NCBI RefSeq assembly: GCF_013372285.1
Contig: NZ_CP054301.1
Location: 124,001 to 188,000 of the forward strand
Direction of reading: 5' to 3'
Length of the DNA stretch: 64,000 nucleotides
From: Marinomonas primoryensis
GTDB taxonomy: Bacteria; Pseudomonadota; Gammaproteobacteria; Pseudomonadales; Marinomonadaceae
Position numbers and translations under genes: made by a program. Shown one piece after another: positions 5,635 to 59,221 of this stretch (the stretch's first letter is position 1; each line of letters opens with the position of its first letter). The notes under the pieces are model-generated. The model was not told where the DNA came from, did no database searches, and saw nothing but the letters and a program-made list of their open reading frames with translations.

Positions 5635-6678
5635 ATGGTTACTTTTTTAGAAAAATCGTTTGGAGTCAAACATACCCATCCAGACTTTCGTTTCCGAAGT
5701 TTTTTATTTTCTGCTCTTTTGATTATTTCTTCTGGGTTCGCTTTTTTTAGCTACTACAATCTTGTTGTGGCTTTTTATGTTCCTATGCTCATTTCTAATG
5801 TTATTGGCCTTATATTTTGCATGCTTGGGGGGTATTACCTATTGGTAAAAAAACGTCCTCAAGTAGCCGCCGTTATTTTGCAAACCATTGTGACCGTCGA
5901 TTCTTTTATACTGATTTTGATTGATGGAAACGAAGAGTTTGCTCTAGCATTCGCGTTTTTAACCCCCGTACTGGGTATTTTTCTTTTAGGGTATCGGTTT
6001 GGTGCTGTATTAAGCGCGATTAACTTTGTGTGTGTTTTATATTTTTGTTCCTCTCAAATGGATACTTGGGAACCAGCCCCTTTTCTTCCTATTAATTTAA
6101 TACATTTCTCGGCGATTTATTTTCTTATCTTAATGGTGTCTGTTTTTTATGATTCGAGCCGTCGGAAGGCTTACTCGATGATGGAAGAAGCTAATGGCCA
6201 GCTGCAAGAGTTGGCAACGATGGATGCGCTCACTAAATTACGTAATCGGCGCTATTTAGAAGATCAATTATTGAGTTCAAAAAATAATTTATTTGTGGCG
6301 ATGATCGATGTAGATGACTTTAAGAAAGTAAACGACCTATTTGGTCATGAGGAAGGTGACAAAGTGCTGATAGAGTTAGCACAACAGCTAAAAAATAATG
6401 TTGGGCCAAATGATATCGTTGGCCGTTGGGGCGGCGAAGAATTTGTCATTATTTTTTCTGAATCTGATTTAACAAAATTACAAAAAAGCTTAACAAAGCT
6501 TAACAGAAACATTGCCGCTCATGATTTTAATGTAGGGCGAAAGATAACCGTTAGTATAGGGCTGTCAGACCATCAAGCCAGTAAGCATCGCGATTGCTTA
6601 CGACAAATGGATCAAGCTTTATACGAAGCGAAAGCGGACGGTAAAAATCAATTTTGTGTCGCCATCAGCCCTATTTAA
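5635..6678 (+). CDS. membrane-bound GGDEF diguanylate cyclase
   Basis: A 347-residue protein. The first ~180 residues contain six hydrophobic segments forming a membrane sensor region, followed by a short linker helix and a GGDEF domain that begins with ATMDALTKLRNRR. The catalytic motif is GGEEF within RWGGEEFVIIF, so the active site looks intact. The substrate-binding DVDDFKKVND motif and the C-terminal DQALYEAKADGKN block are also complete. It should make cyclic di-GMP from two GTP in response to an unknown signal. No EAL domain follows. A typical RxxD inhibitory site is not obvious. The ribosome site before ATG 5635 is weak. Confidence 0.9.
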   Translation: MVTFLEKSFGVKHTHPDFRFRSFLFSALLIISSGFAFFSYYNLVVAFYVPMLISNVIGLIFCMLGGYYLLVKKRPQVAAVILQTIVTVDSFILILIDGNEEFALAFAFLTPVLGIFLLGYRFGAVLSAINFVCVLYFCSSQMDTWEPAPFLPINLIHFSAIYFLILMVSVFYDSSRRKAYSMMEEANGQLQELATMDALTKLRNRRYLEDQLLSSKNNLFVAMIDVDDFKKVNDLFGHEEGDKVLIELAQQLKNNVGPNDIVGRWGGEEFVIIFSESDLTKLQKSLTKLNRNIAAHDFNVGRKITVSIGLSDHQASKHRDCLRQMDQALYEAKADGKNQFCVAISPI

Positions 6679-52497: not shown

Positions 52498-53901
52498 GTG
52501 GATATTTGTATGGATATAAACTCAAAGGATGACATTCGGTTAGAAGATGTTCTAAACACCACCCCTGTTGCCGTTGGTTGGTCTAGTGTTTCTTCCGGCC
52601 GTATTGAATACGTAAACAAGGCTTTTCGCGACCTTTTCGGTTATACCTTGGACGATATACCCAATATTGAAAGTTGGTATTCGAGTGTGTCATCAAAACC
52701 TCAATACTATCAAGACGTCATAGAGCCTTGGATCAAGGAATGCCAAGAAAGCGATGTCGCGCATGCATTAAAGACAATGCTGCATTGCAAAGATCGTTCG
52801 CTCAAGCAAGTCAGCGTGACTTTTTCATTAGTGGGAGATAAGCGGCTTTGGTACTTCAGTGATGTTACTGATTATTGCATTGCTGAAAAAAGACTGCGTG
52901 CTCGCAGTGAAATGCTCGAGATGGTCGCAAAGAGCTCTGCATTAAAAGATATTCTTAATGTTATTGTGAAACAGGTTCAACAAGAAAGCCCCTTCTCATT
53001 ATGCAGTGTTTTATTATTTGATAAAGCCAATCAATGTTTAAAACTCGGCGCTGCGCCGGATCTCCCAGATTTTTATAATAACGCGATTGATGGCATTAAA
53101 ATTGGTGCTAATGTTGGCTCTTGCGGTACCGCGGCTCACTTAGGTGAGCGTGTTATTGTTGACAACATTCATACGCATCGATATTGGAAAAACTTCACTC
53201 AGCTTGCTCGTGAAGCAGATGTTGCGGCTTGCTGGTCAGACCCTATTATGTCTTCTAAAGGCGACTTACTAGGCACCTTTGCTATTTATAAGCGTTTCCC
53301 TTCTTCTCCGACAGATAAAGACTTCGAACTTATTAACTTCGCGAGTAATTTGGCGAGTATTGCCATTGAGAACTTTAGGGTGCAGGAAGAGCTTGAGCGA
53401 AGAGCGCACTTCGATCATTTAACCGGACTGGCAAACCGGAGACAATTTTTTGAACAATGTGAAACTATTCTTAATCAATCGAAGGAAGCGCATTTATCTT
53501 TAGCGATTATGATGATGGATGTGGACCATTTTAAACAAGTAAACGATGATTATGGTCATAAATCGGGTGATTTAGCGCTACAAAAACTTGCAGAAACGAG
53601 CCTGTCTATCTTGCGGAAAGAAGATCTAATCGCCCGAATTGGAGGGGAAGAGTTCGCTATTTTATTGCCACTTACAGGGAAAAAAGAAGCCTTACTGATC
53701 GCTGAGAGGCTGCGTGCAAACATTGAAAATTGCAGCTTGTTCAGCCCAGATAACGAAAAGATTCATATTACAGTGTCGTTGGGCGTGGCGTTTAAACAAG
53801 GCGGTCGTTGTTCGGTCGATGAATTCTTAAATAAAGCAGATAAAGCCTTGTATAGATCCAAGGCGTTAGGGCGAAATTGTGTGTATCTTTTAGAGGATTG
53901 A
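52498..53901 (+). CDS. PAS-GAF-GGDEF diguanylate cyclase
   Basis: 463-467 residues; GTG 52498 or ATG 52510 may be the start. A PAS-like domain (about 15-125, with GRIEYVNKAFRDLFGY), a GAF domain (about 145-300, with GSCGTAAHLGERVIVDNI and WSDPI) and a GGDEF domain (about 310-467). The active site is GGEEF in ARIGGEEFAILL, and DVDHFKQVND is intact. It has no membrane segments, so it is a cytoplasmic sensor that makes cyclic di-GMP. The signal could be a small molecule or redox state bound by PAS or GAF. Confidence 0.9.
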   Translation: MDICMDINSKDDIRLEDVLNTTPVAVGWSSVSSGRIEYVNKAFRDLFGYTLDDIPNIESWYSSVSSKPQYYQDVIEPWIKECQESDVAHALKTMLHCKDRSLKQVSVTFSLVGDKRLWYFSDVTDYCIAEKRLRARSEMLEMVAKSSALKDILNVIVKQVQQESPFSLCSVLLFDKANQCLKLGAAPDLPDFYNNAIDGIKIGANVGSCGTAAHLGERVIVDNIHTHRYWKNFTQLAREADVAACWSDPIMSSKGDLLGTFAIYKRFPSSPTDKDFELINFASNLASIAIENFRVQEELERRAHFDHLTGLANRRQFFEQCETILNQSKEAHLSLAIMMMDVDHFKQVNDDYGHKSGDLALQKLAETSLSILRKEDLIARIGGEEFAILLPLTGKKEALLIAERLRANIENCSLFSPDNEKIHITVSLGVAFKQGGRCSVDEFLNKADKALYRSKALGRNCVYLLED

Positions 53902-57770: not shown

Positions 57771-58679
57771 CTATTCATTGAAATTACGTTTTTTATATTC
57801 ATTTTTGACTAGATATTCAACCATATCATTGATTTTCATACCTTTTTCCTCTGCCAATGCATTTAGCTTTTGCTTTGTATTTAGCGTCATACTGATGCTG
57901 TAAGGCTTTTTACCACTCGATTTTTCTCGAAATTTTTTCTGACTCCATGCCTTCTTCATTTTATCAATGACGAGTGCTTTACGGTCTACGTTATCAGATA
58001 AATCGATAGTAGCAATAACCGCTGCTTTTTTTTCTGAATCGTTGCTTGGTATCCAAGCGGGTTCTAGCGGTCGTTGCGTGATGTTTTGGAGGTAAGACCA
58101 GGCCCAAGCCCATTGGGAAGGGTTATTTTCTTCGAACCAATGCGTTATGCCTTCATTTGTACGTATGTCCTGCCATTTACTTTTAAGATGATCAAGGATG
58201 TCTTGTTGTTGTTGAGCGTCCGCTTCACCATCATAAAAAGCGGTAAGAACATCGCTTTGTCTGTCTGCCGCGTTTTCTCTTTCTATAGTAAAGGCTTTTT
58301 CTGCCAGTAACAGCAGCTCGCTGTCTTTAATGACGTCTTTTTCTAGGTCGGTTTCTGTTTTCTTGGTTTTGCCTTTTAGATAACACCAAGCCCAGTTGCA
58401 CAATCGTTCGTCTTTTTTATCTAGCCATCGAAAATAACTGGAAGGAAGTTGAGTGGATTTAAAAGCAGAGCGCATCTGAGTTGAAAAATTCTGAGGAGCC
58501 CGGTTTTTCTTAATGAGATTGTCTAACTCTTCATTCAGTTTATTTACGCGTTCTGTTGGCGAGTTACCACGTAAGTTTTTTAGCGAAGCGCTTCTTATAT
58601 TTTTCAGTAAATAATCCACATAAAAAGCACATTCTCTTTCGGATGCGGCGTCCAGAAATTCGGCGTTGCTTTTCATCAT
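57771..58679 (-). CDS. ribbon-helix-helix protein with duplicated Trp-rich repeat
   Basis: 302 residues, no signal or membrane segment. The C-terminal ~45 residues (SISMTLNTKQKLNALAEEKG, then MKINDMVEYLV) look like a ribbon-helix-helix DNA-binding domain. A repeat occurs twice with exact 96-residue spacing: Trp85/96/98, Tyr100, Leu101 and Trp181/192/194, Tyr196, Leu197 (NWAWCYL and WAWAWSYL). The WxWxYL plus KMKKAWSQKK and RHH order faintly recalls MatP, which organises the Ter macrodomain, but MatP is shorter. Family otherwise unknown. Confidence 0.65.
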   Translation of the reverse strand: MMKSNAEFLDAASERECAFYVDYLLKNIRSASLKNLRGNSPTERVNKLNEELDNLIKKNRAPQNFSTQMRSAFKSTQLPSSYFRWLDKKDERLCNWAWCYLKGKTKKTETDLEKDVIKDSELLLLAEKAFTIERENAADRQSDVLTAFYDGEADAQQQQDILDHLKSKWQDIRTNEGITHWFEENNPSQWAWAWSYLQNITQRPLEPAWIPSNDSEKKAAVIATIDLSDNVDRKALVIDKMKKAWSQKKFREKSSGKKPYSISMTLNTKQKLNALAEEKGMKINDMVEYLVKNEYKKRNFNE

Positions 58680-59221
58680 TTCTTATTACCTTTTGGTATA
58701 TAAATATTCCATTAAGCTAAAAACTACGGTGTAGAGTGTTCCGTAAATACTACGTGTATTTGTGTAAATTGACAATAATTTTACAGTTGATTTATTGATT
58801 TTATTTGAAATAAAGCTGCCGTTTTTATCGGAAAATAGGTGTTTTTCACTCTTGGTGACGATCGAGTGTGGTTTTTAAATAAAAGGTTATAAGAGGGGGT
58901 GGGTTTAGATGAAATTGATGTGTTTCCCCGTATTTTTTTCATGCCGTAGTCTGGCAGGGGCATTAAATAGAGAAATAGACTGATCGAGGGGGATAGAGTG
59001 ATGAGTAAAACAGGATTGCTTTGTGTTTTTTGATAATGTGAAGCGACAGTCGGAGGGTTTTAGCAAAACCAAACGAGAAGTAGGCAAGAGTGAGATGATC
59101 AGATTCGATTGGTATTTTATGGTGTGGGGATAATAGAGGGTTGTTTAATAAGAAACGGCTACAGAAGTACTATCCGTAGCCGTGCTAAGTCTACATTCAG
59201 GGTGGTTTGGATATGAATGGT
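58680..59221. other. gene-free region
   Basis: 542 bp between two minus-strand genes. No open frame here has plausible coding character or a recognisable product. The last 75 bp contain the rhlE terminator (59155-59183). The remainder is AT-rich in its left half and purine-rich in its right half; I cannot assign a function to it. Confidence 0.5.
59155..59183 (-). terminator. terminator of rhlE
   Basis: On the minus strand ACGGCTAC (59183-59176) and GTAGCCGT (59162-59155) form a perfect 8-bp stem with a 13-nt loop, followed by TTCTTATT. It lies about 40 bp past the rhlE stop. Confidence 0.7.

Follow-up and report, generated by a model that had tools for sequence, protein, structure and literature searches.

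MatP is the organiser of the Ter macrodomain, and matS reads GTGAC-N3-GTCAC. The ribbon-helix-helix (RHH) fold is that of the repressors CopG, Arc and ParG, and it is shared by ParR, the RHH protein of type II plasmid partition, which in plasmid R1 is reported to require at least two 11-bp repeats (PMC9426499). A class of genomic islands is defined by the gene set AlpA, inovirus-Gp2, YqaJ and RadC (PMC12595487). The gene described here lies in a 64-kb window (the whole stretch of DNA that was analysed) from Marinomonas, and new at this locus is a phased 11-bp half-site array that ends in a palindrome and extends over a sigma-70-like promoter. The features are collected in Table 1.

Table 1. 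Features of the RHH-protein gene and its upstream region (positions in the window).
Feature	Position	Strand	Description	Basis
RHH-protein gene	57771..58679	minus	302 aa, ATG start	ORF
Helical unit 1 (probable)	58446..58658	minus	residues 8-78, SERECxFYxxYL	hhalign
Helical unit 2	58155..58445	minus	residues 79-175, W85/W96/W98/Y100/L101	hhalign
Helical unit 3	57909..58154	minus	residues 176-257, W181/W192/W194/Y196/L197 and KMKKAWSQKKFREK	hhalign
Predicted RHH domain	57780..57914	minus	residues 256-300	CopG superposition of predicted model
Six phased half-site repeats	58725..58790	minus	A-Y-Y-A-C-N6; 11-bp steps, one 10, one 12	
Palindrome, last array unit	58724..58734	minus	CTACACCGTAG; CTAC-N3-GTA[GA]	18/18 orthologue upstreams
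Sigma-70-like promoter	58747..58775	minus	TTGTCA-17-TAGTAT, within array	9/12 matches

The earlier note had claimed a 96-residue repeat in the encoded protein, and this repeat is real: all five pairs (W85/W181, W96/W192, W98/W194, Y100/Y196 and L101/L197) are found at +96. Residues W85, W96, W98, L101, W181, W192, Y196 and L197 are present in 16/16 aligned Marinomonas orthologues; Y100 is kept in 13 of the 16 (one H and two F in the others) and W194 in 11, with Y in the other five. The single sequence would not prove the repeat, because a raw identity scan of it alone ranks the offset of 96 outside its six best. Using a 37-member alignment (A3), hhalign matches unit 2 to unit 3 in the exact +96 register with P = 2.5e-13 (3.3e-13 with slightly different limits), and a reversed control gives P = 0.19. 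Unit 1 aligns with unit 2 (P = 1.6e-5, over 17 columns only) and with unit 3 (P = 1.3e-3 over 61 columns); its reversed control gives P = 0.68. Since unit 1 matches both of the others, a third, N-terminal unit is likely, and judging by these alignments the protein is probably a three-unit rather than a two-unit repeat. In the orthologue from Marinomonas rhodophyticola (L037:5001-5903) the ORF stops at 5684, yet tblastn spans all 302 residues; the shortened frame may represent a frameshift or sequencing error.

The C-terminal RHH that had been proposed was borne out by AlphaFold2, which predicts the fold with high confidence; two models were built, model 1 (16 orthologues as input; pLDDT 83.5, pTM 0.71) and model 2 (31 diverse sequences as input; pLDDT 88.7, pTM 0.76). 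The RHH residues superpose on CopG (2cpg, 1ea4 and 1b01) with an rmsd of 0.8–1.2 Å over 43–45 residues and Z of 6.5–7.1, and Arc and ParG are also among the structure matches of this part. By this superposition of the monomer the predicted domain belongs to the RHH superfamily, which is characterised by a short strand and two helices after it, as in CopG and Arc, although DSSP assigns no strand to the monomer model. The RHH stretch is near-invariant across Marinomonas orthologues. Library searches match the C-terminus only, as a generic RHH, and the best matches, NF010256 (E 0.0013; 18.7 of 87 bits) and PF10723 (RepB-RCR_reg; E 0.079; 13.3 of 21 bits), are far under their curated cut-offs. The suggestion of a new regulator family is supported. 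The proteins make up a genuinely new family of the RHH type, marked by a distinctive predicted self-site, and no description of it was found in the open-licence PMC literature.

A resemblance to MatP had also been put forward, and it is supported, with weak scores, for the layout, in which unit 3 is followed by the RHH, but not for a chromosome-organising role, which is discussed below. In Foldseek searches of 350,542 PDB chains, MatP takes ranks 1, 4 and 8 with model 1 and ranks 2, 3, 4 and 6 with model 2, the best E-values being weak (0.41 and 0.33, respectively). MatP provides the only RHH entries in the VIA lists that align beyond the RHH: residues 181/183–302 lie on about 4–134 of MatP in the same order, with an rmsd of about 7, the aligned part being unit 3 and the RHH. 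The VIA-align Z-scores against MatP are 6.6 and 5.0 for model 1 and 7.0 (7nyw), 6.2, 5.7 and 5.2 for model 2, all below 8, under which a score may reflect a mere common arrangement. Comparison with a profile of 17 MatP proteins (alignment A2) gave P = 9e-6 over 105 columns, a signal that comes mostly from the RHH (P = 1.6e-6 when only the RHH is compared, and 0.008 when unit 3 is set against the N-terminal part of MatP). Because the profile signal is mostly RHH and the Z-scores fall under 8, we claim a likeness of layout, which the predicted models support with weak scores, and not membership. ParR entries are absent from the Foldseek and VIA lists, which is no evidence against a ParR-like fold.

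The promoter-like pair within the upstream array is not significant as a match on its own, since shuffles give 3.3 per region; the stretch is kept in most orthologue upstreams as judged by eye. In an alignment of 18 orthologue upstreams the palindrome lies just downstream of this pair, and it is also kept at four loci (L013–L016) where the remaining upstream DNA has diverged. The array has a chain score of 13.5, the best in the window on both strands and little above the highest of five shuffled windows (8.6–12.3), and the training set of the half-site model included this locus. An EM fit returns A-Y-Y-A-C-N6, with arrays that reach 10–14 repeats in some relatives; its shuffled control comprised fewer trials than the real run.

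For the comparison of upstream regions, relatives were picked by protein only. In the 120 bp preceding the gene in 29 relatives from outside Marinomonas, none of 576 palindrome patterns is more frequent than TAC-N3-GTA, which is found in 18; its mean in shuffled sequences is 1.6, and over 60 shuffles no pattern at all exceeded 12. The extended form YTAC-N3-GTAR is present in 15/29 near regions versus 0/29 far regions; it is absent within 120 bp in the other 14, and TAC-N3-GTA does not occur in the 320 bp upstream of the E. coli relative. Left out of the 29 were L019, L020, L022, L023, L085, L093, L096 and L099 (partial or weak), L075 (internal stop), L071 (the same gene as L043) and L045, L046, L097, L098 and L100 (the same as or close to L044), and L049, which is in two ORFs, was counted here and is absent from alignment A3.

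The 11-bp phasing extends beyond the palindrome. Over the 80 bp ending at it, sequence identity peaks at lags of 11 (z 7.3) and 22 (z 6.0), with flat far controls, and the 15 relatives that lack it are still phased (z 7.8 at lag 11). An automatic set, from which identical upstreams were removed with no other hand pruning, comprised 21 unique Marinomonas upstreams and 40 others. The former gave z 8.0 at lag 11, a value inflated because these upstreams share ancestry; the latter gave z 9.2, 8.4 and 7.3 at lags 11, 22 and 33, with 4.0 for the largest other lag. When one representative was taken from each of 26 clusters below 40% identity, z was 8.5, 5.6 and 6.0 at the same lags, and 22 of the 26 exceeded the mean of their own off-period lags. 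In these clusters it is the word AC that is phased, on one strand: AC-to-AC pairs number 39, 29 and 30 at 11, 22 and 33 bp against 14.6 off-period, and GT pairs 12, 14 and 5 against 9.2. Promoters of 17 MatP genes gave z 1.8 at lag 11 and YTAC-N3-GTAR in 0/17.

The reading that we favour, and consider likely, is of an autoregulatory RHH protein with a MatP-like layout that assembles on the parC-like array at its own promoter and represses its own gene. The analysis itself establishes the helical repeats, a predicted RHH, conservation of the palindrome and of the 11-bp phasing, the gene order and the setting on islands; binding of the array by this protein, cooperative assembly and repression are what we infer. 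RHH dimers would recognise the half-site A-Y-Y-A-C, and assembly would start at the CTAC-N3-GTAG palindrome, which lies a short way downstream of the presumed transcription start. Dimers would then be added side by side on the same helix face in 11-bp steps, with the helical units holding neighbouring RHH dimers together, and the assembly would cover the −35 and −10 boxes and thereby repress the gene. The family would belong to AlpA/inovirus-Gp2 islands, and in Marinomonas it would have settled in the chromosome, next to the gene of a RIO-type kinase, and be inherited vertically.

Full-length orthologues are found in 18/35 Marinomonas genomes (own included), the others being 49–98% identical. 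Their neighbours are unrelated chromosomal genes for a RIO kinase and a DEAD-box helicase, and the RIO-domain kinase gene follows the RHH-protein gene in 17/19 Marinomonas loci. At five kinase loci of gene-less genomes (G022, G034, G818, G008 and G020) the helicase and kinase genes adjoin, with no trace of the RHH-protein gene. The gene need not be paired with the kinase, since the four genomes carrying L013–L016 (G004, G009, G013 and G032) keep gene and palindrome and have no RIO-domain kinase match. In this genus the gene is a fixed chromosomal one. Directly upstream of it, at several Marinomonas loci (L026, L027 and L039), are GGDEF-type genes whose products resemble the protein encoded at 52498–53901 of the window. 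The genus also contains an island form: in G022, which lacks the chromosomal gene, a diverged relative (L020; G022:C1:1649789-1649965) is located ~1.6 kb from a Gp2 (PF11726) gene (L140; G022:C1:1651535-1652032).

Profile searches beyond the genus returned relatives in 45/394 genomes of the order that holds Vibrio and, across a sample of the class, in 2/369 genomes including the own one (3/369 with a wider profile). Plasmid records with relatives come from Klebsiella, E. coli, Aeromonas, Psychrobacter, Proteus, Pseudomonas and a few others. The earlier note had named, as an outcome that would speak against it, homologues confined to plasmids or phages and having a different role that is known. 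This applies by half: the inspected relatives outside Marinomonas do sit on genomic islands or plasmids, but with no known role. A phage origin was rejected, as tblastn with two queries gave no match in 50,697 phage records and two viral-contig scans gave no relative; PHROGs matches over the RHH are weak and Arc-like. A defence-system reading was likewise set aside, PADLOC returning nothing for the protein itself and three weak single-member matches among 37.

At the inspected island loci the gene adjoins or lies near genes for inovirus-Gp2 and/or AlpA, often with RadC, DUF932 or integrase genes. Such AlpA/inovirus-Gp2 islands with relatives occur in Vibrio, Klebsiella, E. coli, Proteus and others, and the relative is usually divergent to gp2. 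The divergent neighbour at the Vibrio locus is a YagK/YfjJ (Gp2) domain protein (E = 1.6e-52); at the Gilliamella locus the neighbour matches YagK/YfjJ (Gp2) below the cut-off, and REP_ORF2-G2P (replication-associated) slightly better. On this context the family, whose gene is annotated 'hypothetical protein', appears to belong to AlpA/inovirus-Gp2 islands. One Klebsiella record filed as a plasmid (L049; CP125156.1) has 5.37 Mb, holds MatP and is surely a chromosome; the copy of the gene in it is the one split into two ORFs.

The islands and plasmids also bear on an unlikely alternative of ParR/parC type, in which the array would be a centromere-like partition or incompatibility site of the island, the protein its binding adaptor, and autoregulation secondary. 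It would account for an RHH protein encoded behind 11-bp direct repeats that lie over its own promoter, and for the longest arrays among relatives, but the annotation shows no neighbouring ParM/ParA-like partner at six plasmid-collection loci, on a Klebsiella variicola plasmid or in E. coli ATCC 25922. A GTPase gene lies near the RHH-protein gene in four of these loci. The E. coli form is present in 214/5426 complete genomes and is chromosomal in 216/217 places, where partition would be needless, and Marinomonas retains the array without the island.

It is improbable that the array serves a different factor, as iterons or as an operator, with the RHH-protein gene merely downstream; such a factor could be a replication protein of Gp2 type, AlpA or some regulator of the host. 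The island array does sit between the divergent gp2/alpA genes and the RHH-protein gene; in Marinomonas, however, array and palindrome are kept beside the RIO kinase and DEAD-box helicase genes, and Gp2 (PF11726) is absent from 15/20 gene-bearing Marinomonas genomes, including the own one, which makes Gp2 iterons unlikely. Because Gp2 is missing from most gene-bearing Marinomonas and the gene stands there among unrelated chromosomal genes, the simplest factor common to islands and Marinomonas would be the encoded RHH protein, which is our candidate array binder as against Gp2. Immunity of Marinomonas against the islands was rejected as a role, since Gp2-type genes are found in 5/20 gene-bearing versus 2/19 gene-less genomes and exclusion is not seen.

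We regard as very unlikely a MatP-type chromosome organiser with many dispersed sites that would bridge or tether a macrodomain. The module of unit 3 and RHH finds its best structural match in MatP, the profile comparison also links the two, and the operator shares AC-N3-GT geometry with matS, but beyond the RHH-dominated signal the specific marks of MatP are missing: PF06303, the N-terminal MatP domain, has no match in the own genome at E ≤ 10 and matches 0/19 relatives at E ≤ 0.001, and the predicted model has no coiled coil after the RHH, the last helix spanning 283–300 in a protein that ends at 302. Nor is the exact palindrome CTAC-N3-GTAG enriched, with 25 copies in the 4.07-Mb genome versus 51 for a read-backwards control and 15–27 copies in five other genomes examined, two of them gene-less. 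The 20 palindromes listed of the 25 show no visible Ter cluster, and among 19 other sites inspected in the own genome 17 are inside ORFs and none has an array. The organising role proposed in the earlier note is consequently unsupported. A true MatP is also present in each carrier searched for it, one from Vibrio, two from Gilliamella and one from Klebsiella.

Since the palindrome is not enriched and the other own-genome sites have no arrays, the protein seems to serve its own promoter and not a domain of the chromosome. Among 17 other sites in G009, one (L172; G009:C1:384840-386050) is an intergenic palindrome with three phased half-sites and a score of 11.2, within the range of the shuffled windows; it is a possible second target in that species. 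A large regulon was rejected, with none seen among the sites inspected and this one score in the shuffled range. CTAC-N3-GTAG does not occur over 0.92 Mb of the own genome (G000:C1:1468392-2389246), a gap that is borderline by chance, and avoidance of the terminus is too weakly significant to claim.

Finally, generic A-tract periodicity of bacterial promoters can hardly explain the 11-bp signal, for although AA and TT have peaks close to 11 bp as well and AT content is 72% in the family upstreams versus 64–67% in controls, 60 control sets, each of 40 promoters of other genes at these loci, gave a mean z of 0.93 at lag 11 (maximum 2.65), and the phasing is carried by AC and not by GT pairs.

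The autoregulatory reading provides a testable function and a precise predicted site for a 'hypothetical protein' gene of a widespread island class, and the self-site makes the binding prediction directly testable. More speculatively, the unnamed island-borne family, with its MatP-like triple helical repeats, might form a filament or wrapped complex on phased 11-bp arrays, centromere-like without a motor and domesticated in Marinomonas, and might mark an evolutionary link between parC-type adaptors and MatP; we put this forward tentatively, as a rather unlikely possibility. That a protein of islands carries MatP-like repeat units also prompts one to ask whether MatP itself descended from such elements.

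In comparison to known systems, the protein has the RHH domain in common with the CopG, Arc and ParG repressors, from which it differs by the 255 residues of helical units that precede it. The resemblance to the replication-regulatory RHH of RepA/RepB (NF010256, PF10723) is limited to the RHH part and lies below cut-offs. The genes of the islands in PMC12595487 are the same as those next to relatives outside Marinomonas, and its passages on them make no mention of this protein. MatP (PF06303; MatP_C, PF17414) appears to share the order of W-x-W-x-YL helical unit, basic helix and RHH, and both have a palindrome with an AC-N3-GT core; MatP has one helical unit where the protein here probably has three, and it has a C-terminal coiled coil and a dispersed site set, which the protein here lacks along with a match to the family. 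ParR/parC of plasmid R1 has the actin-like ParM, of which no counterpart is annotated beside the gene at the island, plasmid or Marinomonas loci, and ParR lacks the long N-terminal helical repeats. The RHH protein and the 11-bp direct repeats at its own promoter are common to both, and ParR on parC is the nearest working analogue.
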